A DNA stretch of 64,000 bases from contig NZ_JAAAJC010000001.1 in NCBI RefSeq assembly GCF_009900715.1, forward strand, positions 1 through 64,000, written 5' to 3'. A program made the position numbers and the translations under genes. Below, one piece after another: positions 1 through 14,436 of the stretch. Each line of letters begins with the position of its first letter. Position 1 is the stretch's first letter. The DNA comes from Halococcus salsus. Its GTDB lineage: Archaea > Halobacteriota > Halobacteria > Halobacteriales > Halococcaceae. The notes under the pieces are model-generated. The model was not told the origin of the DNA. It saw only the letters and a list, made by a program, of their open reading frames with translations, and made no database searches.

Positions 1-1
1 T

Positions 2-2752
2 GCCATCGTCGCGGAGTCGACGGCGGGTCACTTCGAGGTACGGAACACGCGTATCGGGGTCGACCCCGACGGGGTTCGGGCCGTACTGGGCAAGGAGCCC
101 GACGGCGGCGCGTACGAACCGCCGGCCGAGCCCCACTCGGCCGTCTTCCGGAACGTGAGCATCACCGGCGACGCCAGCAGTAACGGCGCGATCAAACTCG
201 TCGACCGACCGGACTCCCTCGTCGATGGGTGTTGCATCCGTCAGGACGGCTCCGACCGCGATGGGGTCGTCGTCGTGAACTCCGACGGCTGCCGGGTGAG
301 AAACAGCACCATCGACGTGACGAGTCGGCAGGTCGTCGAGGACGGTTCGTCCGTGTCACAATCCAATCTCTCGGACAGCGGTTCGTGCCCGGCACCCAAT
401 GACGCTGCAGGTGACGACCTTCCACGCCAGCTCACGTTCACGAGCGACGGCGGCGAGTTCAGCTACTCGTTCACGGTGAGTGGCGACCTCGTGAAGTCCA
501 CCGCACGTGGCGCGAGCATCGACCCGAACGACACGGTCTCCGGGAGCAGCGCAACGGGGCAAGGTAACGGCGGCACCGATAGTTACGGTTTCTCGGGCGA
601 CCTGCTCGGTATGAACTTCGACGGTGATGCGACGGTCTATCTCGACGGCACCGTTATCGACCCCGACGACTACGCAGCACCTGGTAACGACCTCCCGCAC
701 AAACTTTCGTTCGTGAGCGACGGCGGCGAGTTCGAGTACTCGTTCACGGTGAGCGGCGACCTCGGAAAATCCACCGCCCGCGGCGCGACCATCGACGACA
801 AGGACACCATTTCGGGGGACACGGCGACTGGACAAGGGGGTGGCGGGGGCGTCGATAGCTACGGATTCTCGGGCGAGATCGAGTCGCTCGACTTCGAAGG
901 TGACGCCACGGTCTACCTCGACGACGACGTTATCGACCCCGACGGCTTCGCACAGGATACGCTCACCATCGCGAGCAACGGCGGTCGGTTCTCGTACACG
1001 GTTTCAGTGAGCGGCGACCTCACGAAATCGAGCGCGAACGGCGCGAGCATCGACCCCAACGACACGATCTCGGGAAGTACGGCGACCGGGCAGGGTGGCG
1101 GCGGAGGCGTCGACAGCTACGGGTTCTCGGACGAGATCGAGTCGTTCGATCTCGATGGTGACGCTACCGTTACGTTGAATGGCGACCGGATAAATCCGGC
1201 TGATTACCCGGATAAGGTCCTTTCGTTTACCGGAAACGGCGATTTCAACTATAGGGTTTCGGTTAGCGGGAATCTCGCGAAAAGTACAGCTAACGGGGGA
1301 AGCATCAACGACGAGGACACCATTTCCGGCAGCACTGCCACTGGCAACGGGATCGAGGACGGTGTCGATAGCTACACCTTTACTGGCGAGATTCGCCGAC
1401 TCGATCTCGACGGTGACGCTACCATTACACTGAATGGTGAGACCATCGAGCCGGACGAACGCTCACAAAACGTGATTTCGTTCGTGGGGAACGGTGACTT
1501 CGAGTATACGCTCGCAACGGGCGGTGCTCTCGAAAAGAGCACAGCAAACGGGGGGAGCATCAACGATGACGACACCATTTCCGGCAGTACTGCCACCGGT
1601 AACGGGATCGCGGACGGTGTGGATAGCTACGTTTACTCCGGTGACATCGAAGTCCTCGACCTTGAGGGTGACGCTACCGTCACGTTGAACGGCAACGAGG
1701 TCGATCCGGATGCGTATCCGGACAACGTCCTTTCGTTCATTGGGAACGGCGACTTCAACTACGAGGTCTCCGTTGGCGGGAGCCTCGCGAAAAGTACGGC
1801 CAATGGAGGGAGCATCAACGACGAGGACACCGTTTCCGGCAGCACTGCTACCGGCAACGGGATCGAAGACGGTGTCGATAGCTACGCTTACTCCGGAGAC
1901 ATCGAAGCCCTCGACCTTGAGGGTGACGCTACCATCACACTGAACGGCGACCGGGTAGACCCGGATGATTACACAGTACCTGGTAATGACCTTTCACATC
2001 AACTCTCGATCGTGAGCGAGGGTGGGGAATCCACCTACTCGTTGACTGTGAGTGGTGACCTCGAAAAATCCACGGCACGCGGTGCAAGTATTGATGACAA
2101 CGATGTCATCTCGGGAAGTACAGCGAATGGACGGACTAACGGGGGAACCGACAGCTACGGATTCTCAGACGAGCTTCTTGTACTATCCGTCGACGGCAAT
2201 GCCGAGGTCTATCTGGACGGCAACGGTATTGACCCAAGCGACTACACGGACAGTGTAATTTCGTTCGTGGGGAACGGTGACTTCGAGTATACGCTCGCAA
2301 CGAGCGGCGCTCTCGAAAAGAGCACAGCAAACGGGGGGAGTATCAACGATGACGACATCGTTTCCGGCAGCACTGCCACCGGCAACGGGATCGCGGACGG
2401 TGTGGATAGCTACGTTTACTCCGGTGACATCGAAGTCCTCGACCTTGAGGGTGACGCTACCGTCACGTTGAACGGCAGCGAGGTCGATCCGGATGCGTAT
2501 CCGGACAACGTCCTTTCGTTCATTGGGAACGGCGACTTCAACTACGAGGTCTCCGTTAGCGGGAGCCTCGCGAAAAGTACGGCCAATGGAGGGAGCATCA
2601 ACGACGAGGACACCGTTTCCGGCAGCACTGCTACCGGCAACGGGATCGAAGACGGTGTCGATAGCTACACCTTTACTGGCGAGATTCGCCGACTTGACCT
2701 CGACGGTGACGCCACTGTCTCGATAAACGGCCAACGGCTCAATACGGTTTGA
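2..2752 (+). CDS. Surface beta-helix protein with nine C-terminal repeat modules, 5'-truncated
   Basis: The reading frame is open from base 2 to the TGA at 2750-2752, so the gene starts before the window; the GTG at 155 lies inside the coding sequence. The first ~140 visible residues are short beta-strand turns (for example FEVRNTRIGVD, NSDGCRVRNSTIDV) typical of the C-terminal coils of a right-handed parallel beta-helix (pectate-lyase-like fold). They resemble the equivalent part of the protein at 4214-6487, so the two look like paralogues. Nine imperfect repeats of 85-91 residues follow, to the C terminus. The protein is acidic, rich in Asp, Gly, Ser and Thr, has no C-terminal membrane anchor and is probably secreted. 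By inference it is a surface or matrix protein, possibly polysaccharide-binding or -modifying. No catalytic residues can be assigned. Confidence 0.8.
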   Translation, partial: AIVAESTAGHFEVRNTRIGVDPDGVRAVLGKEPDGGAYEPPAEPHSAVFRNVSITGDASSNGAIKLVDRPDSLVDGCCIRQDGSDRDGVVVVNSDGCRVRNSTIDVTSRQVVEDGSSVSQSNLSDSGSCPAPNDAAGDDLPRQLTFTSDGGEFSYSFTVSGDLVKSTARGASIDPNDTVSGSSATGQGNGGTDSYGFSGDLLGMNFDGDATVYLDGTVIDPDDYAAPGNDLPHKLSFVSDGGEFEYSFTVSGDLGKSTARGATIDDKDTISGDTATGQGGGGGVDSYGFSGEIESLDFEGDATVYLDDDVIDPDGFAQDTLTIASNGGRFSYTVSVSGDLTKSSANGASIDPNDTISGSTATGQGGGGGVDSYGFSDEIESFDLDGDATVTLNGDRINPADYPDKVLSFTGNGDFNYRVSVSGNLAKSTANGGSINDEDTISGSTATGNGIEDGVDSYTFTGEIRRLDLDGDATITLNGETIEPDERSQNVISFVGNGDFEYTLATGGALEKSTANGGSINDDDTISGSTATGNGIADGVDSYVYSGDIEVLDLEGDATVTLNGNEVDPDAYPDNVLSFIGNGDFNYEVSVGGSLAKSTANGGSINDEDTVSGSTATGNGIEDGVDSYAYSGDIEALDLEGDATITLNGDRVDPDDYTVPGNDLSHQLSIVSEGGESTYSLTVSGDLEKSTARGASIDDNDVISGSTANGRTNGGTDSYGFSDELLVLSVDGNAEVYLDGNGIDPSDYTDSVISFVGNGDFEYTLATSGALEKSTANGGSINDDDIVSGSTATGNGIADGVDSYVYSGDIEVLDLEGDATVTLNGSEVDPDAYPDNVLSFIGNGDFNYEVSVSGSLAKSTANGGSINDEDTVSGSTATGNGIEDGVDSYTFTGEIRRLDLDGDATVSINGQRLNTV
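1472..1885 (+). repeat. Direct repeat copy 1 (units 5-6)
   Basis: This 414-bp block recurs 783 bp downstream at 2255-2668 with about ten mismatches by my count, far more alike than neighbouring units. It covers unit 5 and the first half of unit 6, so it points to a recent multi-unit duplication or gene conversion. Confidence 0.85.
2255..2668 (+). repeat. Direct repeat copy 2 (units 8-9)
   Basis: Second copy of the 414-bp block at 1472-1885. After about 2668 the match switches: the tail of unit 9 agrees with unit 4 (1361-1401) instead of unit 6. Confidence 0.85.
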
Positions 2753-3138
2753 TCGCAATATCCGGTCCCGAGCTAGTCCCTGTCGATGTACACGTGTTTG
2801 GTGGATGTGTTATACAGAGTCGCTTCGGTGCTTGGAGCCCGCTGGCCTCCAATCTTGCTAGCGATGTTTTAGCTTGACTAGCGACTGGTCCGATACGGTC
2901 ATACATGAAATATATAAACATGATTCAGATAGCGGCGAACACCTGATTTCAAACGATGCATACCTGATCAAGGCATACAGTGCGTTGTCTAGCTGTATTC
3001 CGAGTGCTCAAATACACTAATGAATATCCCGTTTGAGAACGTCTCTGCGCTCGATTCTCTGCAAACCAACCGTCGAATTGATGACACCGTCGCTAAGCCA
3101 GTGTTGCAGAGATCTCTGATGTGTTCTTGCCTCCTCAC
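2753..3138. other. Intergenic region, AT-rich, no clear gene
   Basis: These 386 bases separate two convergent genes. The stretch is AT-rich, with a TATA-like run near 2908-2918. A short open frame from ATG 3020 reads MNIPFENVSALDSLQTNRRI and on to a TAG near 3170, overlapping the end of the glycosyltransferase gene. It may be a decayed fragment, but I could not assign it. Confidence 0.5.
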
Positions 3139-4068
3139 CTATCTAGCTAACCCACGGAGATACTGCTCGTAGAGCCCACCGGCGGCACGGGCGAGTTTGC
3201 TGAGGTAACCGATCCCGTAGAGCCCGACCGTCTCACGAGCGGTCGGCGTCGTCGCGTCGGTCAGTCGGCCGTAGAACGTCCGTGGACGGAGCGGGAGGAA
3301 CTTCCGTGGGTCGAGTGGGTGTGAACTCCCGGCCCGTTCGGGATGGTAGCGCCGTCGCTGGATCGACCCGCGGCCGACCCGGAACTGCTTTCGAAGCCAC
3401 GCCCCGAGCGTCGTCCGTGCCGGATGGTAGACGGTGATATCCGGCTCGAAGTACTGCGTGAGCCCCGCGTCGTGGACACGCTCGCCGAACTCCCCATCGC
3501 CGCCGGAGATCAGGCGCGAGTCGAATCCCCCGACGTGGTCGAAGACGGACCGCCTGACGGTCAAGCAGGCGGTGACGGTGAAGTGCGCCTCTTCGAGGTA
3601 CCGTCGGACCGTGAACCCCAGGGCGCGGTCGTAGGTCGCCGTCAATGACCCCTCGCCTACGACGTACGTCTCGATGTCACAGCCCATGTAGTCCCAGTCG
3701 TTGGCCTCGGCCGAGGCGACGATCGACTCGGCCCAGGTCGGCTCGACGGTCATATCCGCATCGATGAACGAGACGAGGGAGCCACGGACGTGCTCGATGC
3801 CTCTGTTTCGAGCGGCGTAGGAACTCTGGATCTCGTCCTCGACCAACAGGGTGACGAGCTCCGGGTACCGCTCACAGTACTCCCGCACGACCGCCCGCGT
3901 GTCGTCGTCGGAGCCGTTGTCCACGACGACGACCTCGTAGCGGGCGGTCGGGTAGGTCTGTGCGACCAGTGATTCGAGCGTCGTCCGGATCCCATCCGGG
4001 TCGTTGTAGACCGGCACGATGACGGAGAGCCGTGGCGAATCCGCCGTGTGTCGGGACGAGGAAGACAT
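3139..4068 (-). CDS. Family 2 glycosyltransferase (GT-A fold)
   Basis: The 309-residue protein opens with the GT2 signature SVIVPVYNDPDGI at residues 15-27, followed by VVVVDNGSDDDT near 47-57 and the metal/nucleotide-sugar site FIDAD at 101-105. A GGFDSR-type acceptor-side segment and a basic C-terminal region follow. No membrane segment is evident, so it probably acts on the cytoplasmic face, adding sugars to a lipid-linked glycan or exopolysaccharide. The start is the ATG at 4068; the stop is TAG at 3139-3141. It lies between the two beta-helix genes on the opposite strand and is divergent from the downstream one. Donor and acceptor cannot be read from the sequence. Confidence 0.88.
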   Translation of the reverse strand: MSSSSRHTADSPRLSVIVPVYNDPDGIRTTLESLVAQTYPTARYEVVVVDNGSDDDTRAVVREYCERYPELVTLLVEDEIQSSYAARNRGIEHVRGSLVSFIDADMTVEPTWAESIVASAEANDWDYMGCDIETYVVGEGSLTATYDRALGFTVRRYLEEAHFTVTACLTVRRSVFDHVGGFDSRLISGGDGEFGERVHDAGLTQYFEPDITVYHPARTTLGAWLRKQFRVGRGSIQRRRYHPERAGSSHPLDPRKFLPLRPRTFYGRLTDATTPTARETVGLYGIGYLSKLARAAGGLYEQYLRGLAR

Positions 4069-4173
4069 GATATTCGGTTGTCGACCAGGGGCGACTTAAG
4101 TGGTCGAGAACGCCACCGGGTTCGAACGGACCGGAGTAGTGGGTCGTGGAATATCGTTCAACACCGCTGAAAA

Positions 4174-4179
4174 TTTATA
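4174..4179 (+). promoter_or_regulatory. Probable TATA box of the TAT-exported beta-helix gene
   Basis: TTTATA lies about 38 bases before the ATG at 4214, giving an expected transcript start near 4203 and a short leader of about 10 bases. A second AT-rich run, TTTAAATAATGG, directly precedes and includes the start codon. Confidence 0.45.
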
Positions 4180-4213
4180 CGATGATTACGTCTCACACTA
4201 CGGTGTTTAAATA

Positions 4214-6487
4214 ATGGACGATATGGGTGTGCGTGAAAGGGACGAATCCGAGGGGACGGACCAGGTCGTTTCTCGGCATCCGACCAGACGGCGCGAGTAC
4301 CTGAAGCTAGCAAGCACCGCTGCGGTGTCGGCGGTGGGGCTCGCGGCGACGTCCGGACAGGCCAGCGCCGCGACGACGGTCGGCGGCGTCCGGTTCGGGA
4401 ACACGGTGAACATGGTGAACGAGGCGGGGTGTAACCCGAACGGGAGGGGGTCGTGCCACGACGAGGTCATGGAGTACGCCGACGACGACACCCTGTTGGT
4501 GTTCCCCGAGGGAACCTATCGGCTCGATACGGGGCCGAACACCCGAATCGACCTCCAGGGCTACGACAAGTTCGGCATGATCGGGAAGGGCGGCGGTGCG
4601 ACGTTCGAGTTCACCAGCAACACCGACGGTTACAAGGACATCAATGTCGACGACGTCGGGCAGTTCGTCCACCGGAACATCGATTGGGACATCACGGCGA
4701 ACAACTGTGCACCGGGGTTCGCCGTCAGGGCACGCGACCGGCTCTTCATCAAAGATTGGAACGTCAACGGGCGGCAGGACAAGGACGGCGGGTTCACGCT
4801 TCAGCCCGGTATCGCGAACCCCGACGGGGTCGGTATCATCAGACAGTTCGATGCGAGGGACGGGTGTGAGATCGGCAGCGTCGAGCGCAACGGCGTGCTC
4901 GTGGCGTCCGGACGAAACAACGGCACCCTCCGGTTCATCGACTGCCACCTCGAGGAGTTCTCGAACAACGGGATCTACGCCGCCGCCTCCGGCGGCCCGA
5001 TCCAGGTCGAAGGCGGCACGTTCCGGAATTCGGAGCCCTCCCAGCTTCGGTTCTCGGGCGAGGGGAGCTACGTCGACGGTGCGACCGTCGAACTCGACAT
5101 CTCGAAGATGCCACGGGAGTACGGCGAGCAGATCGAGAACGCCCGCGGGATCTGGTGGGAGACCAAGAACACGACGCCCCTCCGCAGCGGCGGCGAGATC
5201 CGGAACACGGACGTTATGATGCGAAACGCCGGGCCGCCGCCTCTCGAGGAGACCTCGCCGAACTCCTCGGCAGGCATCCTGATCCCCTCCGGTGGCGTCA
5301 CCATCAGGGACTCTACGGTTCGGGTGGATATTACGCCCCGTCCGGCGATACACGCCCAGGGACCGCTCCAGTCGAACCTTCCCGAGCCCTATCGGGTCGT
5401 GATGGACAACGTGACCGTCGAGGGATCCGCCAACGACTGGGCGGCCGTCCAGATCGAGGAGCGACCGGGGTCGGTGATCCGGGGGTGTGAGTTCGACATC
5501 GGCTATCGGAACGGGGTCGTGCTCGCCGAATGCGACGGCTCGACGGTGAAGAACACGACCATCAACTCGCGGTACGGTGGGGGTCGGCCGATAGTGCTCT
5601 GGGGCACGGAGGCCAGTATCGATAACGTCTCCACGAATAGCAGCAATCCGCTGCCCAGTGGGGGCGACGGCGACGAGATCTATGGACCGAGTCCAATCAA
5701 CAATGACTCTGACTCGGACGAAAATCAAAAGAATATGGTCTCAATAGAAGGAAACGGTGACTTCAGCTATCATCTGTCGGTAAGCGATAACCTCGAAAAG
5801 AGCACGGCAAATGGGGGAAGTATCAACGACGACGACATCGTCTCTGGCAGCACTGTTACTGGCAACGGTATCGAAGATGGTGTCGATAGTTACACTTTCT
5901 CTGGAGGACTCGAATCATTCTCCCTTACTGGTACGGCCACGGTGACGCTGAACGGGAAACAGGTCGATCCGGACGAATACCCAAACAATGTGGTCTCGAT
6001 CGTTGGGAACGGCGATTTCGAGTATATGCTTGCAACGAGCGCCGACCTCGAGAAGAGTACCGCCAATAGTGGAAGTATCAACGACGGTGATACGATCTCT
6101 GGTAGCACTGCTATTGGTGATGGCATCGAAAACGGGGTTGATAGCTACGTTTTCTCTGGCGAGCTCGAAGCCTTCCAAATTCATGGCGACGCTATCGTAA
6201 TGCTGAATGGTGAGACTATCGACCCGGATGAGTATCCCAGTAACGTAATCTCGATAATTGGGAATGGCGACTTCGACTATCGGCTCTCAGTAAACGGTGC
6301 CATCGCAAAGAGCACGGCAAACGGGGGAAGTATCAACGACGAGGACACCATCTCCGGCAGCACTGCTACCGGAAATGGAATCAAGAACGGCGTCGATAGC
6401 TACGTTTACTTCGGTGACCTCGAAGCTCTCAATATCAACGGTGCCGCGACTGTCATGAGAAACGGTCGACAGAGAAATGATCGATGA
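4214..6487 (+). CDS. TAT-exported beta-helix protein with three C-terminal repeat modules
   Basis: The 757-residue protein has a twin-arginine signal: RRREYLK at about residues 25-31, a hydrophobic stretch, and an ASA cleavage site near residue 52. Residues ~53-480 form a pectate-lyase-like right-handed beta-helix with many short V/I-x-D/N-x-T strands and a GRNNGTLRFIDCHLEEFSNN segment typical of such coils. Residues ~508-757 are three copies of the ~85-residue module also seen nine times in the gene at the window start. It would be exported folded across the membrane and may act on, or bind, surface polysaccharide; the neighbouring glycosyltransferases and flippase fit this. A catalytic triad cannot be assigned by eye. 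The module half is visibly more AT-rich than the helix half, which suggests domain fusion. An alternative start is the ATG at 4223. Confidence 0.85.
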   Translation: MDDMGVRERDESEGTDQVVSRHPTRRREYLKLASTAAVSAVGLAATSGQASAATTVGGVRFGNTVNMVNEAGCNPNGRGSCHDEVMEYADDDTLLVFPEGTYRLDTGPNTRIDLQGYDKFGMIGKGGGATFEFTSNTDGYKDINVDDVGQFVHRNIDWDITANNCAPGFAVRARDRLFIKDWNVNGRQDKDGGFTLQPGIANPDGVGIIRQFDARDGCEIGSVERNGVLVASGRNNGTLRFIDCHLEEFSNNGIYAAASGGPIQVEGGTFRNSEPSQLRFSGEGSYVDGATVELDISKMPREYGEQIENARGIWWETKNTTPLRSGGEIRNTDVMMRNAGPPPLEETSPNSSAGILIPSGGVTIRDSTVRVDITPRPAIHAQGPLQSNLPEPYRVVMDNVTVEGSANDWAAVQIEERPGSVIRGCEFDIGYRNGVVLAECDGSTVKNTTINSRYGGGRPIVLWGTEASIDNVSTNSSNPLPSGGDGDEIYGPSPINNDSDSDENQKNMVSIEGNGDFSYHLSVSDNLEKSTANGGSINDDDIVSGSTVTGNGIEDGVDSYTFSGGLESFSLTGTATVTLNGKQVDPDEYPNNVVSIVGNGDFEYMLATSADLEKSTANSGSINDGDTISGSTAIGDGIENGVDSYVFSGELEAFQIHGDAIVMLNGETIDPDEYPSNVISIIGNGDFDYRLSVNGAIAKSTANGGSINDEDTISGSTATGNGIKNGVDSYVYFGDLEALNINGAATVMRNGRQRNDR
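5735..6484 (+). repeat. Three tandem ~85-residue modules
   Basis: Units start at 5735, 5990 and 6245, each exactly 255 bp apart. All are subtype B (KSTANGGSIN, GNGI, DGVDSY), the subtype that dominates the second half of the array at 419-2749. Confidence 0.85.
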
Positions 6488-6646
6488 AAACCCAAGCGTC
6501 TCATAGACTATACGTGGGATCTCCCTTGCACTGTTCAGATCGCAGTATACATCCCACGCTACTCTCTCCAAGTCAAAAAAGTTCACTGTGCCAGTTTGTA
6601 GGCCGTTTGTAACCGTTTCACTTTGCCTGCAAAGACTTGCTTTACG

Positions 6647-7852
6647 TTATTTCTGGTAGGACTCGATCGTGTTCTCGAACGCTGTTACTATGCTGTCACC
6701 AGCAGCCTCGAGACTGAAATTCTGCTGGACCGTTTCCCGAGCACGATGTCCCATGGTCTCTCGCATATCATCATCGGATAATAGCTTCGAAACCCCATCG
6801 GCCAAAGCAACGGAATCACGGGGTTCAACAAGCAGTCCGTTCTTTTCGTGTTCGATCAGCTCTGGGATGGCAGATACAGTGGTTGACACACAGGGCGTTT
6901 CCATTGCCATTGCCTCTTTAAGAACAACCGGCATCGCGTCCCTGTCCCCATCTGAGGCGATGACGCAAGGAAGAACAAATACTGAAGCCTCATCGAGTTC
7001 TTGATGCAGACGGCTATCGTCTACATGTCCAAGAAAGACAACTCGGTCCTCAACCCCTAGATCGCGTACTTGATTTCGGAGTGCTTCTTTTTGCTCACCT
7101 GTACCAACGATGTGATATTCGACATCTGGATATGTTTCCGAAAGCTGTCCCAATGCCTCGATAGCATATTCGATCCCCTTTTTTTCCACCAATCGAGCGA
7201 TAGTCAGGATTCGACCGGGTATCTCTTGGTGCGTTGGGTCGTACTTCGATACACGGGTGGTTGCTGGAACTACCTCAATAGGTAGTTTCACCTGAAGTTG
7301 CTTACGAAGGTACTCGCGGTTGTACTGGGAGGGGGCAATAACTCGATCCATCCGGTTGAGAAGGGCGTTGAGTAAACGGATGTCCGGGTTCCTAAATATC
7401 TCGTAAGCGTGGGCTGCTACCGTACACGGAATTTCGAAGTACTTTGCTGTATAGGTTGCAGGAAATTTGTTTGGGTGTGCAAAGTGGCAGTGGATTATGT
7501 CCGGCTCCCAATCTAAGTTCCTGATGTATTCGATGCACTGTCGGGTCAAATGGAGATATCTCGCGTGATTTTTGGGAGTCGTACGATAGAGTACCTGACG
7601 GAGTACACGAGCGTTCAGTATCACAGGGTCCAACAAGTCCGGGAGATCCCTTGGAGTTGGCTGTGCCGCATATCGTACAGGGATCTCAAGTTGGCTATAC
7701 TCTTGATGCTGAATCTCCTCACCTGGGTTCTGACGAGCAAATACTGCGACATTATGGCCGCGACGGTCGAGTTCAACGATTTCATTCAACACAAAACTCT
7801 GTGAGAGCTTGGGATAGTTTTTTAGATAATACAGAATGTTCATACCACCCAT
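6647..7852 (-). CDS. Family 4 glycosyltransferase (GT-B fold)
   Basis: The 401-residue protein has the layout of GT4 retaining transferases: an N-terminal Rossmann half with a DIIHCHFAHP segment, a linker at SQYNREYLRKQL, then a C-terminal half with ILTIARLVEKKGIEYAIEAL, GTGEQKEALRNQVRDLGVEDRVVFLGHV and the E-x7-E-type motif EAMAMETPCVSTTVSAIPEL. It probably works in the cytoplasm on surface glycan assembly. The gene is AT-rich compared with the flanking genome, as are the flippase and acyltransferase genes that follow. Its promoter lies in the low-GC stretch above 7852. Sugar specificity is not readable. Confidence 0.88.
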   Translation of the reverse strand: MGGMNILYYLKNYPKLSQSFVLNEIVELDRRGHNVAVFARQNPGEEIQHQEYSQLEIPVRYAAQPTPRDLPDLLDPVILNARVLRQVLYRTTPKNHARYLHLTRQCIEYIRNLDWEPDIIHCHFAHPNKFPATYTAKYFEIPCTVAAHAYEIFRNPDIRLLNALLNRMDRVIAPSQYNREYLRKQLQVKLPIEVVPATTRVSKYDPTHQEIPGRILTIARLVEKKGIEYAIEALGQLSETYPDVEYHIVGTGEQKEALRNQVRDLGVEDRVVFLGHVDDSRLHQELDEASVFVLPCVIASDGDRDAMPVVLKEAMAMETPCVSTTVSAIPELIEHEKNGLLVEPRDSVALADGVSKLLSDDDMRETMGHRARETVQQNFSLEAAGDSIVTAFENTIESYQK

Positions 7853-8263
7853 CTATCGTCTCCGTGGCCTTGAAACAACCGGATCGGACCTATTCATCTG
7901 CATTGCGTTGGTCTCCGGGATGAATGCCTACCTTTACAAAGAAGTTCGCTGCTTGGCAAGTACGACCCGGTTCACGTAATTTCAATGCACTCAGACATAG
8001 CTGCTCAACTGAGATGTTCGTCCACGTGTGTTTCGAATGGACCATCCATGCTTCGTACAATGGAGAAAATTGCCACAAATGACGCTATACACTCGTATAT
8101 ACACGCACCTGATGAACTCTGCTCTCCAAGTAGGAGTTGTGTGGTGTCCGAAAAACCAATTTTTGCATATACCCCTGTCACCTAGAGGGAGACCGGATTT
8201 TAGCCCAGCAGCATAGCAATCAGATGGAAAAACTCATACTGGTCTCAAAACGACCAATGCTGA
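7853..8263. other. AT-rich intergenic region with a gene fragment
   Basis: These 411 bases separate the divergent GT4 and flippase genes. Apart from the minus-strand fragment at 7890-8078 I see no full gene, RNA or repeat here. Promoters for both flanking genes should lie in it, but no TATA box stands out from the AT-rich background. Confidence 0.5.
7890..8078 (-). pseudogene. Possible fragment of a lost gene
   Basis: A 62-codon frame reads as plausible protein (for example FSPLYEAWMVHSKHTW and ANFFVKVGIHPGDQRNADE), with a possible TTG start and a TAG stop two codons further upstream. It ends 37 bases before the GT4 start on the same strand. The amino-acid make-up looks coding, but the family is not recognised. 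It could be a small gene co-transcribed with GT4 or the remnant of a larger one. Confidence 0.3.
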
Positions 8264-9766
8264 ATGGCTGACAGACCTGAGTCGGGGATCTCTGCTGCAC
8301 TTCGGTCGGTTGTACGTGGCGCAGGCGCACAAGTCATTGGGTTAGGTGTCGCGCGAGTTCTTGGATTCATTGCAACATATCTCCTAACCCGTAGTCTGGG
8401 AGCAACGGCTTATGGCATCTATTCATACGGAAAAGTATTGCTCTCAATAACGAGCACCATCTCAAATTTTGGAACAGACCAATCGATTGTTCGTTTCGTT
8501 CCGAAATACACAAATGACAGAGCAGCACAAAACCGTACGATTGGACTAGCTATTGTCACGTCGCTTGTTGGGGGCATTATTGTTGGACTTACGCTATACT
8601 GGGTGGCACCAGTGATCTCGGAGTACACGCTCGATCGTCAATTGTTGGTGTCGATCCTCCGGTTGTTCGCAATCGCTCTTCCTGCAATGACTCTCATTGG
8701 CTGTATCTCCAGTGTCTTCCGGAGTTTGGAACTCCCCGGCTACCAGATACTTTCTGGAAATATCATTCGCCTTGTTTTCCGTGTTTTGGCTATTGGAGTA
8801 ATTGTTGCAATTGGTGCTAGTTTGGTCGGTGTTGTCGTTGCGGAAGTTATTGCAACAGTTCTCGCCCTCCTCTTTGGAATCTATTTATTTGTCAGAAAAA
8901 CTGATTTTTGGCCCAACCTCCACAGCACCAGCCCTGGATACCGAGAGTTTTACAACTTCTCTGTCCCACTCACGATGACCGACACCGGGCGGTTATTGCA
9001 GAGTCGTATTGATATTTTGATGGTCGGTATCTTTCTCCCCGGGAGTGCGGTTGGTATCTATAATCTCTCATCGGTGCTGTCGCAGGTTCTCGACATTCCC
9101 TCTGTTGCGCTCAACACAATTTACCCTTCTATCGCTTCCCGAATGTATAGCAATAACGAACGGGGAGCGTTGGAAGCACTATTTACCCGGGTTACTCGTT
9201 GGACGTTCACACTAGCGCTTCTACCGGCAGTTGGTCTTTTCATTTATTCGAGTCAAGTTCTTTCGATTTTTGGAGAGGGTTTTAGAGCAGGGATGGCGGT
9301 CCTTTCTCTGTTCGTACTTTCGTCACTCTTGAATTCCGCGACCGGGCCTACCGAATACACACTCATGATGACCGACCATCAATACCTATTGCTAGCGAAT
9401 AGATGGGGTGGGGGAATATCCAACGTCATCCTCAATTATCTATTTATCACCCGATACGGTCTCATTGGTGCCGTGTCCGCTACCGTCATTATCTCCGCCA
9501 TTGTTGACATCGCCAGCCTTATTGAGGTCTGGTACACCGAAGGACTCTTTCCTTACTCGCTAACGTTTCTTAAGCCGATCACCGCCGGTCTTGCCTGCGG
9601 AGCAGCCTTGAAAGGGTGGGAAACACTCTCATTGGTGTCGGGATTCCCGCTTTTAATTATCGGTGCTGTCATTGGTACGGTCACTTATATAATATCCTTG
9701 TTGGTATTGGGTATTGAAGAAGAGGACCGTGAGTTCCTCACAGACATACGGTCAAATATAACTTAG
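8264..9766 (+). CDS. Polysaccharide/lipid-linked oligosaccharide flippase (Wzx-type, MOP superfamily)
   Basis: This 500-residue polytopic membrane protein has an estimated 12-14 transmembrane helices. It starts with the typical GVARVLGFIATYLLTRSLGA region (residues ~27-46) and has FGTDQSIVRF near 65-75, both common in archaeal and bacterial Wzx/RfbX-like flippases; the length matches the family. It would move a lipid-linked glycan across the membrane, the step between the cytoplasmic transferases next door and the cell surface. The start is ATG 8264. Codon use is AT-rich like its neighbours. It may belong to the same family as the haloarchaeal N-glycosylation flippase candidate AglR, but orthology cannot be judged by eye. 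Confidence 0.88.
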   Translation: MADRPESGISAALRSVVRGAGAQVIGLGVARVLGFIATYLLTRSLGATAYGIYSYGKVLLSITSTISNFGTDQSIVRFVPKYTNDRAAQNRTIGLAIVTSLVGGIIVGLTLYWVAPVISEYTLDRQLLVSILRLFAIALPAMTLIGCISSVFRSLELPGYQILSGNIIRLVFRVLAIGVIVAIGASLVGVVVAEVIATVLALLFGIYLFVRKTDFWPNLHSTSPGYREFYNFSVPLTMTDTGRLLQSRIDILMVGIFLPGSAVGIYNLSSVLSQVLDIPSVALNTIYPSIASRMYSNNERGALEALFTRVTRWTFTLALLPAVGLFIYSSQVLSIFGEGFRAGMAVLSLFVLSSLLNSATGPTEYTLMMTDHQYLLLANRWGGGISNVILNYLFITRYGLIGAVSATVIISAIVDIASLIEVWYTEGLFPYSLTFLKPITAGLACGAALKGWETLSLVSGFPLLIIGAVIGTVTYIISLLVLGIEEEDREFLTDIRSNIT

Positions 9767-9863
9767 CTGCCTATATCGGTATCATAGTGGTATCCATACG
9801 GCTGGTAGGAAAAATAATACACATATATGATACGTTGTGGTACTCGGGTGGGGCGTGGCTACC

Positions 9864-10520
9864 CTAGTCCCAAGATACACCTTCTTCGATGACCCTCGCA
9901 GGTGCCCCAGCAACAAGCGTTTTCGGTGGTATGTCTCTGGTAACGACGCTCTCGCTCGCGATAACAGCACCTTCGCCCACTACCACTCCCTTTTTAATAC
10001 GGGTGCCGGAACCGATCCAAACGTTGTCGTTGATCGTAATCGGGGCTGTTGTTGGTTTCGTTTCTTCGTCCGTAAAGAGGCTATGTCGGTCGGTGTCGCT
10101 GAGGGCAACATCCCATGCGATCGAACATCGGTCTCCGATCTCGATACGATCTTCACAGAGCAATCGAAACTCTGAATTAACGAACGAATTGCCAATCGAG
10201 AAATCCCCCTCTATTCGCAGCACTGAGCCGTGCCCGATCCTCGGCAGTCCTCCACCAGCGTGTATCGTCGCATCTGATGCAACAGACAGCTTGGTTGGTG
10301 AAAAGGCGCGAGATGATGCGGGTTCGATCGAACCTACGAAAAACACGTTATCGATCTCTATATCTGAAGAATCAGCAAGGTCGACAGCCGCTTTCGAATT
10401 GAGAATTATCGACAGGGGGTCGTTCCCCGTTCGTTTGGAATAGTAGACGGTCTTTGCGAGCCCAAGAGGACCGATGCGGCGTAGGATATCTGTGTGGGTT
10501 CCTACTGTGTTTGGAGGCAT
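9864..10520 (-). CDS. Hexapeptide-repeat acyltransferase (LbH fold)
   Basis: The 218-residue protein has a left-handed beta-helix C-terminal half: IEIGDRCSIAWDVALSD, then WIGSGTRIKKGVVVGEGAVIASESVVTRDIPP and the common ending AGAPARVI. These are hallmarks of maltose/galactoside O-acetyltransferase-like enzymes. The first ~90 residues are a distinct N-terminal part without a recognisable domain. It probably transfers an acetyl or other acyl group to a sugar of the surface glycan. The gene follows the sulfatase-like gene by 12 bases on the same strand, so the two form an operon. The substrate is unknown. Confidence 0.85.
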   Translation of the reverse strand: MPPNTVGTHTDILRRIGPLGLAKTVYYSKRTGNDPLSIILNSKAAVDLADSSDIEIDNVFFVGSIEPASSRAFSPTKLSVASDATIHAGGGLPRIGHGSVLRIEGDFSIGNSFVNSEFRLLCEDRIEIGDRCSIAWDVALSDTDRHSLFTDEETKPTTAPITINDNVWIGSGTRIKKGVVVGEGAVIASESVVTRDIPPKTLVAGAPARVIEEGVSWD

Positions 10521-10532
10521 GAGTTGCTATGT

Positions 10533-11639
10533 TCAGAGATATCCAAGAGCTTCGAGCATTTCTTGTTGGCTTTTATCATTCGATTCGACTTCTATATCTG
10601 GATGGTGCGATTCTGTGTCCTTCGCTGATGTGACGAGCCATGGGACACGCCGAACCTTCGGGTGCAGCATTCCAACACGGTGCTTATAGCCCTTTTTTCC
10701 AAGAAACCGCTCGCCGAATGCCTCACCATGGTCAGCTGTGATCGCGACTTTCTCTGCTTCATAGTTCGACAACAAGGTATCTATGGCATCTATTCCTAAC
10801 TGTAGTTCTTCGAGGTACCGGTTCCAGAGGTTTCGCCTCGATAGCGTTCCATCTCGAAGCTGATTGAATGGAAACCGCTGCCAGTCCTCTAATTCTGCTT
10901 GTTCACCCGACTCAACGGCACTATAGTATGGATAATGGGGTTGAATATAGTGAACGATCATCTTCTCCGGGTTCTCGGTGCGTCCCTGCTGAATAGCCAA
11001 ATCGGTGACTAATTCTGCAGAAGGGTGAGGTCGGTCAACATGCCCTCCGGAAGGTGTTCTTGCGTCCCGCAGACTTCCTACAGAAACGAATTCGTGGAGT
11101 GCCTTTTTCGGAAGGAAATCCCATTTAGTTGGACTCCAGCTAGCGTTATCGACATCCTCTGGCAGCTTTTTTCCGTCGAGCACTTGCTCAACTAATAAAT
11201 TTCCTGCGATGTAATCTGTTCTGTTGATCTGAGCCGAGTAAGGTGCTCGAAACGTTTGTGCAGTCCATTCGAGAGTTGACCCGCCCACAGACAGACGAGA
11301 CTGCAAGGAGGCATCTCCCAACCAGCTATACCTATTTCTGTTCCTCATCTCCAACAAACCATCCAGTCGGCAGGTATCCAAAAGTATCAGCAAATCCCAA
11401 TCGTCGTCGAATACATTATCCCCTATGGGATATCTAGAAAATGCGGCAGCCTCAAACCCGGAAATTAGCGATGGGGCTCTTGATGTGACATATTCCCGAA
11501 CCATCTCCGGATTGCGTATTCCCTTAGCGATCTTGTGAGATATCGAACTCAACATGGCCACTGACCTCATCTCGCTGCCGCCGCTGATAAAGCTTGATAT
11601 CAGGTTCGATTGCCAATAGTTCTCTGTTGGATCTCGCAT
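10533..11639 (-). CDS. Sulfatase-like alkaline-phosphatase-superfamily protein
   Basis: The 368-residue protein shows the metal-site pattern of this superfamily: LLILLDTCRLDGL early, IVHYIQPHYPY in the middle and ITADHGEAFGE near the C terminus, where Asp-His binds the second metal. The usual nucleophile region is divergent (FRAPYSAQINR). There is no signal peptide or membrane segment. Related haloarchaeal genes often sit in glycan clusters, so a role in adding or removing sulfate or phospho-groups on surface sugars is likely but unproven. The start at ATG 11639 is uncertain: in-frame Met codons at 11573 and 11555 would give a family-like N terminus. It is the first gene of an operon with the acyltransferase. 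Confidence 0.75.
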   Translation of the reverse strand: MRDPTENYWQSNLISSFISGGSEMRSVAMLSSISHKIAKGIRNPEMVREYVTSRAPSLISGFEAAAFSRYPIGDNVFDDDWDLLILLDTCRLDGLLEMRNRNRYSWLGDASLQSRLSVGGSTLEWTAQTFRAPYSAQINRTDYIAGNLLVEQVLDGKKLPEDVDNASWSPTKWDFLPKKALHEFVSVGSLRDARTPSGGHVDRPHPSAELVTDLAIQQGRTENPEKMIVHYIQPHYPYYSAVESGEQAELEDWQRFPFNQLRDGTLSRRNLWNRYLEELQLGIDAIDTLLSNYEAEKVAITADHGEAFGERFLGKKGYKHRVGMLHPKVRRVPWLVTSAKDTESHHPDIEVESNDKSQQEMLEALGYL

Positions 11640-11869
11640 TTGACTTGATGCGAAATAGAAGAACTTTGTTCAGTCACAAATACGACAAATGGTGAGATAC
11701 AAAGATTGGCATTTTGACAACAGTGAAAAACAAGTAGAAAAAGTGATACGAAGGGGGTAAGGGTGCTCACTCCGATGATTGAAACTGTGTTGAATACTAT
11801 CTCGAAGGGAAACAGAACGGTGTTCAAGCGATTGTTGCGGACCAACAAGCATGTCTGGGGCTGGTACTG

Positions 11870-13093
11870 GTGACGACCGGTATCTGGCTCGTCGGCGCGC
11901 ACGGTAACGTCGCCACGACCGCGATGGTGGGCGCACGCGCCATCGCGCACGGCGTGACCGGCACCGAAGGAATGGTGACCGAGCGCCCGCCGTGCGACGC
12001 GCTCGATCTTCCCGATGTGGATTCGTTGGTCTTCGGTGGGCACGACGTCCAGTCCGGGAGCGTCGTCGAGACGGCCGAGGCTCTTCACGAACGGAACGGC
12101 GTACCCGGCCGTGCGGCGCTCGACGCGGTTCGCGACGACCTCGCCGCCATCGACGACCGGATCGAGGTCGGGACGGCGCGGAACTGCGGGACGACGGTCG
12201 AGCGCCTCGCCGACGAGGCCGCGGACGAGGGGGGTTCTTTGCGAACGGTCACCGAGGAGATCCGGGCCGACTACGAGGCGTTTGCCGAGGCCAACGGGTT
12301 CGACCGGGTCGTGGTGGTGAACGTCGCCTCCTCGGAACCGATCCCGCACGACCCCGCACGGTACGACACCGTCGAGGCGATCGAAACCGCCCTCGACGAT
12401 GACGACCCACTCCCGGCGAGCTCGCTCTACGCCTACGCCGCGCTCAGTGGTGGGTACCCGTTCGTGAACTTCACGCCGAACGCCGCGAACGCGCTCCCCG
12501 GGCTCCGCGAACTCGCCAAGCGCGAGAACGTCCCGCACATGGGGCGCGACGGGAAGACCGGCGAGACCCTCATGAAGTCCGCGCTCGCGCCGATGTTCGC
12601 CGACCGCAACCTCCGGGTGGAGTCCTGGGAGGGCCACAATATCTTGGGGAACGGCGACGGCGAGGTCCTCGAGGACGAGGAGAACAAGGCCGGAAAGCTC
12701 GACAGCAAGGGCGGCGTGCTCGACGGGATCCTCGACGAGGACTTCCACAACCGCGTCCGGATCGACTACACGCCCGCGCTCGCCGACTGGAAAACCGCCT
12801 GGGACGACATCCGGTTCCGTGGCTTCCTGGACACACAGATGAAACTCCAGTTCACCTGGGAGGGCTCCGATTCGGCGCTCGCCGCCCCGCTCGTGCTCGA
12901 CCTCGCACGGCTGGTGGCCTACGCCGATAGGCAGGGTGAGGGGGGGCTCCAGCCCCACCTCGCCTCGTTCTTCAAGGCCCCGCTCGGCGTCGACGAACAC
13001 CGTCTGGCCGCACAGTTCGACATGCTCGCCGACTACGTGGCGCGCCACACTGCCGAAACTGACGGCGGCGCGGACGCGGAGGGGGGCGTATGA
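11870..13093 (+). CDS. ino1: Inositol-phosphate synthase (myo-inositol-1-phosphate synthase)
   Basis: The 407-residue enzyme converts glucose 6-phosphate to inositol phosphate with NAD. Seen motifs: the Rossmann loop GAHGNVAT at 9-16, GGHDVQSGS near 57-65, NVASSEP, and the inositol-synthase segments FVNFTPNAANALPGL, GRDGKTGETLMKSALAPMF and GHNILGNGDGEVLEDEENKAGKLDSK. In archaea the product feeds inositol phospholipids (archaetidylinositol) and inositol-based solutes. The frame begins with GTG 11870; the ATG at 11851 is out of frame, so GTG is preferred. The stop overlaps the next start by four bases. The gene marks the return to high GC after the glycan region. Confidence 0.9.
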   Translation: MTTGIWLVGAHGNVATTAMVGARAIAHGVTGTEGMVTERPPCDALDLPDVDSLVFGGHDVQSGSVVETAEALHERNGVPGRAALDAVRDDLAAIDDRIEVGTARNCGTTVERLADEAADEGGSLRTVTEEIRADYEAFAEANGFDRVVVVNVASSEPIPHDPARYDTVEAIETALDDDDPLPASSLYAYAALSGGYPFVNFTPNAANALPGLRELAKRENVPHMGRDGKTGETLMKSALAPMFADRNLRVESWEGHNILGNGDGEVLEDEENKAGKLDSKGGVLDGILDEDFHNRVRIDYTPALADWKTAWDDIRFRGFLDTQMKLQFTWEGSDSALAAPLVLDLARLVAYADRQGEGGLQPHLASFFKAPLGVDEHRLAAQFDMLADYVARHTAETDGGADAEGGV

Positions 13094-14436
13094 CCGACAC
13101 GGGTCGAGCGGTGGTGCTCGACGTGATCGGGCTCGAACGCGAGCACGTCGACGCGGGGCTCGCACCGAACATCGCCGAGCTGGTTCCCGAGCCCGCGCGT
13201 GCGGACCTCGAGATGCCCTTCCCGGCGGTGACCCTGCCAGCCCAGTCGACCCTCGCCACCGGCCGATCTCCGAAAAATCACGGCGACGTCGCGAACGGCG
13301 AGTACGACCGCGACACCGACTCGGTGGCGCTCTGGGAACGCGACCGCGAGGGTCGGAACCGGCTCTGGGAGATGGCGAGCGAAGCCGGACTCACCACGGG
13401 CGTGTTCTGCTTCCAGCACCTCATCGGGACGAGTGCCGACGTGGCGCTCACGCCGTCGCCGATCGAGGACGAGGACAACAACATCCTCGAGATGAACTGC
13501 TGGACGAACCCTGACGGCTTCTACGACGAACTCGAAGCCGAGTACGGCCACTTCCCCCTTCACACCTACTGGGGACCCGGTGCGAACGAGACCTCCTCCG
13601 AGTGGATCCTGAACGCCGCCCGTGAGTCGGTCGAACGCTACGACCCCGACCTGCTCTGGGTCTACATCCCCCACCTCGACTACGCCGGCCTCGCCCACGG
13701 CCCGAGCAGCGACGAACTGGCGGACGCCATCGGGGTGGTCGACGACCTCGTGGGAGGGTTCCTCGACTCGCTCCGTGGCGACGACCGCTGGGACGAGACC
13801 GCGGTCCACGTCGCGAGCGAGTACGGCTTCCACGACGTCGACACCCCGATCTATCCGAACCGTGCGCTCCGCGAGGCAGGGCTTCTAGAAGTCCAAGACG
13901 ACGGCGAGGGCGGCGAGGAAGTCGACTTGGAGGGATCGAACGCGTTCGCGATGGTCGATCACCAGGTCACACACGTCTACGCCGACGAGGGCGCGGTCGA
14001 CGACGCCCGTGAGGCCCTCTCGGACCTGGATGGCGTCGAGCACGTGCTCGGCGAGAGTGGTAAAGAGGAGTGGGGCGTCGCCCATCCCAACGCGGGGGAT
14101 CTCGTGCTCGTCGCCGAACCCTCGGCGTGGTTCCAGTACTACTGGTGGCACGAGGACGAGGACGCGCCGTTCTACGCCCGCGACATGGACATCCACGCGA
14201 AACCGGGCTTCGATCCCGTCGAACTCTTCTTCGGCGACGAGGGACTGGTCTCGCTCGACGCCACGAAGGTCGGCGGGTCACACGGCCGCGGGGACGTCGA
14301 CGGATTCTACGGGATCGGTGGTCCGGCGGCCGACGCGTCGATCCCGGACACCGTCGACGCGCGGGCCGTCACGCCCACGCTTGCCGACCGTCTCGGGGTC
14401 GACGTCGAGATGGACTTCGAGCGCGACCCGCTCTGA
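13090..14436 (+). CDS. Alkaline-phosphatase-superfamily phosphodiesterase/nucleotide pyrophosphatase-like protein
   Basis: The 448-residue protein fits the type I phosphodiesterase/nucleotide pyrophosphatase group: a metal-binding Asp in VVLDVIGL, the nucleophile region FPAVTLPAQSTLATGRSPKNHG at about 40-61, IPHLDYAGLAHG with Asp and His ligands, VASEYGFHDVDTP, and GGSHGRGDVDGFYGIGG near the end. There is no signal peptide, so it is probably cytoplasmic. It overlaps inositol-phosphate synthase by ATGA, implying translational coupling and a linked role, perhaps in making or trimming an inositol- or phospho-containing compound. Related proteins occur with UbiA-type prenyltransferases in the bacterial ebo cluster; that link is inference. 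The substrate is unknown. Confidence 0.78.
   Translation: MTDTGRAVVLDVIGLEREHVDAGLAPNIAELVPEPARADLEMPFPAVTLPAQSTLATGRSPKNHGDVANGEYDRDTDSVALWERDREGRNRLWEMASEAGLTTGVFCFQHLIGTSADVALTPSPIEDEDNNILEMNCWTNPDGFYDELEAEYGHFPLHTYWGPGANETSSEWILNAARESVERYDPDLLWVYIPHLDYAGLAHGPSSDELADAIGVVDDLVGGFLDSLRGDDRWDETAVHVASEYGFHDVDTPIYPNRALREAGLLEVQDDGEGGEEVDLEGSNAFAMVDHQVTHVYADEGAVDDAREALSDLDGVEHVLGESGKEEWGVAHPNAGDLVLVAEPSAWFQYYWWHEDEDAPFYARDMDIHAKPGFDPVELFFGDEGLVSLDATKVGGSHGRGDVDGFYGIGGPAADASIPDTVDARAVTPTLADRLGVDVEMDFERDPL

Follow-up and report, generated by a model that had tools for sequence, protein, structure and literature searches.

Two exported beta-helix proteins encoded at the start of the analysed stretch of Halococcus salsus DNA (64,000 nucleotides, hereafter the window) carry twelve copies of a module whose family is new but whose kind is known. 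Its behaviour is that of a class-wide, promiscuous and mobile accessory domain, which also occurs on its own and on non-carbohydrate proteins. We propose, with about even confidence, that an array of these modules serves as a multivalent holder, keeping a secreted enzyme on extracellular polysaccharide or cell-surface glycan.

A profile search located nine units in ORF 2-2752 and three in ORF 4214-6487, both on the + strand (n = 12), with individual E-values of 1e-27 to 1e-32; the profile was built from the window units and copies from the same genome, and these values thus gauge the coherence of the units. The period is ~85 aa, made up of a globular unit of ~77-83 residues and a short linker. 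Together with the ORFs, the search bears out the original prediction of 9 + 3 modules with this period and with the sequence strings it quoted. The span first given for them, 419-6484, does contain the modules but is not continuous, being split by a glycosyltransferase gene on the opposite strand (3139-4068). The two proteins are composed as follows:

2..2752, + strand: nine-module C-terminal portion of an exported beta-helix protein (ORF open at the 5' end, 916 aa)
431..652, + strand: module 1 (profile match)
698..928, + strand: module 2 (profile match)
959..1186, + strand: module 3, the unit used for structure prediction (profile match; model pLDDT 95.9)
1217..1441, + strand: module 4 (profile match)
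1469..1699, + strand: module 5 (profile match)
1724..1951, + strand: module 6 (profile match)
1997..2224, + strand: module 7, of the subtype of modules 1-3 (profile match)
2255..2479, + strand: module 8 (profile match)
2507..2734, + strand: module 9 (profile match)
4214..6487, + strand: three-module beta-helix protein of 757 aa, TAT-exported (motif RRREYLK)
4373..5623, + strand: predicted parallel beta-helix domain (AlphaFold model, Foldseek; nearest solved folds are the AlgE6/AlgE4 A-modules and polysaccharide depolymerases)
5642..5725, + strand: Asp/Ser-rich, probably disordered linker between beta-helix and modules (pLDDT <50 at model residues 428-455)
5732..5962, + strand: module 10 (profile match)
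5987..6214, + strand: module 11 (profile match)
6242..6469, + strand: module 12 (profile match)

Within the first protein, unit-to-unit DNA identity ranges from 63 to 96%, and TRF detects a DNA repeat array at 1266-2685. Two module subtypes are present, one comprising modules 1, 2, 3 and 7 and the other modules 4, 5, 6, 8 and 9. Taken as pairs, modules 5-6 and modules 8-9 share 94.1% DNA identity (module 5 versus module 8, 96% of nucleotides; module 6 versus module 9, 93%), which excludes chance and identifies them as the product of a recent two-unit duplication.

The first protein had been described as truncated. Its ORF is indeed incomplete, and the cause is the edge of the contig: the window begins at base 1 of contig C1, where the ORF is cut. 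Residues 1-142 of this ORF match the end of the beta-helix of its paralogues. Contig C4 opens with the same bases as C1, also within a beta-helix gene, which has five units, and two paralogous N-terminal halves, both with the TAT motif RRSYLK, break off where contigs C6 and C3 end. Since C1, C4, C6 and C3 all terminate within near-identical beta-helix paralogues (window 1-150; L011:1-150; the ends of L119 and L120), these genes are where the assembly broke, which makes the truncation an artefact of assembly. The cell most likely makes the first protein whole, as a TAT-exported beta-helix protein. The C6 and C3 halves are candidate N-termini for the arrays, and either half could belong to either array.

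The second protein was modeled over 708 residues (10 sequences) with a mean pLDDT of 77.4. In the model, a low-confidence linker joins a beta-helix to three domains that repeat the strand order of the single-unit model. In a Foldseek search with the full model, the best match was the A-module of AlgE6 (E 7.5e-5, prob 1.00, TM 0.49 of target), and AlgE4 was matched with E 2.7e-4; other matches included Klebsiella phage depolymerases, the biofilm-modifying enzyme WceF, GH87 and tailspikes, while RbmB fell slightly above E 0.001. From this predicted fold and the neighbouring genes we infer that the beta-helix likely acts on polysaccharide. The neighbours concerned are:

3139..4068, - strand: family 2 glycosyltransferase, between the two module genes (PF00535, E 5e-30)
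6647..7852, - strand: family 4 glycosyltransferase, glycan cluster neighbour (PF00534, E 9e-38)
8264..9766, + strand: polysaccharide flippase, glycan cluster neighbour (PF01943, E 2e-24)
9864..10520, - strand: hexapeptide acyltransferase-like protein, glycan cluster neighbour (PF00132)
10533..11639, - strand: weakly sulfatase-like protein (PF00884, E 1e-4, 22.1 bits, below the Pfam cut-off of 25)

Over the glycosyltransferase, flippase and acyltransferase genes (window 6001-12000) the GC content is 0.48-0.50, versus 0.64-0.70 beyond, so that this stretch looks like an acquired glycan island. Directly past it, at window 11870-14436, lies a myo-inositol-1-phosphate synthase gene followed by a type I phosphodiesterase/nucleotide pyrophosphatase-like gene, the two overlapping by four bases.

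Elsewhere, the association of the module with such genes was variable. Among relatives, flippase or glycosyltransferase genes were found in 11/20 module regions versus 3/20 controls (Fisher p 0.019), and a smaller query set gave 11/20 versus 2/20. They also lay within 10-12 kb of 11 of the 14 plasmid module copies examined, which were chosen, not random. In the genome of the window, only one of nine module loci, that of the window itself, was near such genes, versus 3/9 controls, and pooling these loci with those of the relatives gave p 0.15. A glycan-cluster neighbourhood thus fails as a universal rule at the other loci of this genome, and only some of the hosts show a real link between module and glycan genes. 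One such host is the product of E6P09_RS16790 on plasmid pHME505 of Haloferax mediterranei (L122:10450-13113, annotated as hypothetical protein), in which four modules follow a beta-helix-like region and whose gene lies amid flippase and glycosyltransferase genes. The deletion of exopolysaccharide genes has reportedly been achieved in this species, and the presence of a module copy near such genes in strain ATCC 33500 of this culturable species makes the role of the module directly testable. Six plasmid loci (L123, L124, L132, L133, L134 and L135) have, ~8 kb or less from the module gene, a gene for transcription initiation factor IIB, often accompanied by an ArsR-family regulator; it is possibly a dedicated regulator.

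To place the module itself, a single unit was modeled with AlphaFold from an 87-sequence alignment. The model (mean pLDDT 95.9, pTM 0.85) is all beta except for one three-residue turn, a compact beta fold as the original prediction had envisaged. With the unit as query, Foldseek found no match with E <0.001 in PDB or BFVD. The top match, a variant of CBM2 (E 0.13, TM 0.40), was not significant, so that a likeness to CBM2 is suggestive at most; judging from the model, the unit may have a fold not yet seen in solved structures. Conservation is strongest at profile positions Y14, D36, G45, D52, Y/F54, G58 and D79, with Asp present at positions 36, 52 and 79 in 82%, 92% and 97% of units, respectively. 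Cys is nearly absent, and Trp accounts for 0.6% of residues and is conserved nowhere. The net acidic excess of the module is double that of the rest of its hosts (14.5% versus 7.4%), as expected for an exposed haloarchaeal domain.

The module is widespread in haloarchaea. The protein search gave 42 matches in the genome of the window, whose genus is the richest in the class (26-39 matches); across the class, it occurred in 103 of 145 genomes, representing 49 of the 58 haloarchaeal genera sampled. In a sample of 295 genomes from the phylum there were 36 positives, all from the same order. A scan of bacterial and archaeal GTDB genome contigs, which was pattern based and so reaches close relatives only, yielded 28 loci, every one haloarchaeal, and the plasmid matches were haloarchaeal without exception. 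No relatives of the module were present in the viral contigs and phage records searched, and a viral or phage origin was rejected on this basis. Within the phylum sample, phages and viral contigs searched, the module was found in haloarchaea only. Short ORFs at four loci (L018:1161-1466, L123:22574-22999, L132:2392-2823 and L135:19436-19750) hold single partial units and are perhaps gene remnants, and three genomes (G024, G008 and G026) have a stop within units.

Neither Pfam nor NCBIfam gave a full-length match to the module above the curated cut-off, and a PDB sequence search with two profiles gave nothing credible. The profile of the units describes a class-wide family that has no model in the libraries searched, and the view that the module lacks a functional description holds in that Pfam, NCBIfam and the PDB sequence search revealed no named functional domain. 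A literature search on haloarchaeal beta-helix, exopolysaccharide or module terms found no paper describing it. A genome may contain as many as ~40 copies, and the hosts carry annotations as hypothetical proteins or beta-helix proteins; a name for the module would annotate many exported haloarchaeal proteins.

Among complete, non-redundant host ORFs, 80 of 90 have a TAT-like motif, called with a loose pattern rather than SignalP, and in 75 of the 90 the last unit lies within 25 residues of the C-terminus. The commonest arrays have three or four units. The module had been placed on beta-helix proteins, which holds for the two window proteins but not as a restriction, as it is promiscuous across hosts. 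Its anticipated recurrence on exported carbohydrate-related proteins was observed with beta-helix hosts and GH26 hosts (L009 and L050); in Halococcus thailandensis (L059:1860-5759), one frame of 1300 residues comprises a subtilase, seven modules and GH26. Another host combines AstE/AspA-like and H-type lectin domains (L056), and plasmid hosts have FN3 and thioredoxin domains. By reading of their sequences, further hosts are CAP-like (L074), lipoprotein-like (L017 and L019) or surface-protein-like (L013 and L015). Finally, four TAT proteins (L010, L014, L016 and L064) consist almost only of 3-4 units, which argues that the unit acts by itself.

These observations suggest the following working model. 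The module would be a secreted accessory domain of haloarchaea, compact, all-beta and ~80 residues long, present in arrays mostly of 3-4 copies (3 and 9 here) that are usually C-terminal on TAT-exported proteins. The two window proteins are probably extracellular beta-helix enzymes that modify or degrade polysaccharide, encoded beside two glycosyltransferases and a flippase, and the array could tether the enzyme to the polysaccharide or glycan in the manner of CBMs and AlgE R-modules. Two observations favour a binding role, most simply for extracellular polysaccharide: the units are joined to GH26 and to beta-helices of the polysaccharide type, and they also form stand-alone arrays. We infer from these that the module may bind glycan. 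The near absence of Trp, the non-carbohydrate hosts, the insignificant match to CBM2 and the lack of nearby glycosyltransferase genes at the other module loci of this genome count against this reading. Its boldest form, in which a haloarchaea-specific domain family with a topology unlike solved folds provides a new family of glycan-binding modules and one of the main means by which haloarchaea hold secreted enzymes within their own exopolysaccharide in brine, seems to us rather doubtful.

The strongest rival to the binding role is a pure spacer, in which the module would be an inert, acidic, salt-tolerant element that holds a functional domain off the cell or off itself. The diversity of the hosts, with thioredoxin-like, CAP-like and FN3 domains among them, fits this reading, as do the strong acidity of the unit and its few aromatic positions, which are probably in the core. 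There is also a precedent in DUF1735, which is attached to varied carbohydrate-related partners and was proposed as a spacer domain (PMC11216935); the same has been proposed for BACON domains. However, in the stand-alone TAT arrays no further domain was recognised that could be spaced, and the array mostly sits at a free C-terminus (75/90) rather than between an anchor and a domain. We regard the spacer as somewhat unlikely. It is clearly less probable that the module mediates cell-cell or surface adhesion through protein or S-layer partners instead of polysaccharide. The tandem layout, the differences in copy number between paralogues and the stand-alone exported arrays would suit such a function, but most hosts end in the array, with no recognised membrane or C-terminal anchor, and the recognisable partner domains mostly point to glycans.

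Calcium binding, with folding dependent on it as in RTX or R-modules, is very improbable: the conserved Asp at positions 36, 52 and 79 would be in line with the original suggestion of a calcium-bound domain, but the strict RTX nonapeptide occurs in 15/400 units and a dockerin-like loop in 7/400, neither being consistent enough to count as a general feature of the module, and the predicted unit fold is not a beta-roll. Membership of the covalent FMN-binding family PF04205, whose fold has a helix after the flavinylation motif [ST]GA[ST]xT, can be dismissed almost entirely, as the match that suggests it (25.5 bits versus a cut-off of 22 at residues 701-728 of the second protein, with weak matches in 7/39 units) spans only ~28 residues, just 25% of units have Thr in the flavinylated column (profile position 44), strands instead of a helix follow the motif in the unit model, and the flavin transferase ApbE was not found in the genome whereas 7/14 controls were positive. 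Automatic annotation may nevertheless mislabel module proteins as FMN_bind.

Compared with known systems, the module resembles PF04205 only in the short string SGSTATGNG..., while its fold, the conservation of the motif and the lack of ApbE in the genome are all at odds with that family. DUF1735/BACON of Bacteroidota is likewise a beta domain reused on varied carbohydrate-related partners, but is N-terminal, lipoprotein-anchored and reported to be Ig-like, whereas the module is mostly C-terminal, TAT-exported and, in our searches, confined to haloarchaea. CBMs such as CBM2 are small beta domains that secreted enzymes carry singly or in several copies, and the module is similarly appended to carbohydrate-active enzymes, namely GH26 (L009, L050 and L059), as well as to non-carbohydrate hosts. 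Many CBMs bind through aromatic platforms; the module differs from CBM2 in having no conserved Trp, no PDB sequence match and only an insignificant structural similarity, and no CBM model in Pfam matches it. The catalytic motif of the AlgE mannuronan C-5 epimerases of Azotobacter vinelandii, DPHE, is absent (0/123 module-bearing ORFs), and the module, which is archaeal and TAT-exported, lacks the Ca2+ nonapeptides of the R-modules as a regular feature and is not an RTX/Ca2+ beta-roll. The AlgE enzymes nevertheless offer an architectural parallel, as they too are secreted and consist of a right-handed parallel beta-helix followed by smaller tandem modules, and the beta-helix of their A-module is the best fold match of the second window protein (model mean pLDDT 77). 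In AlgE, the R-modules bind alginate and are required for full activity (PMC4444821).
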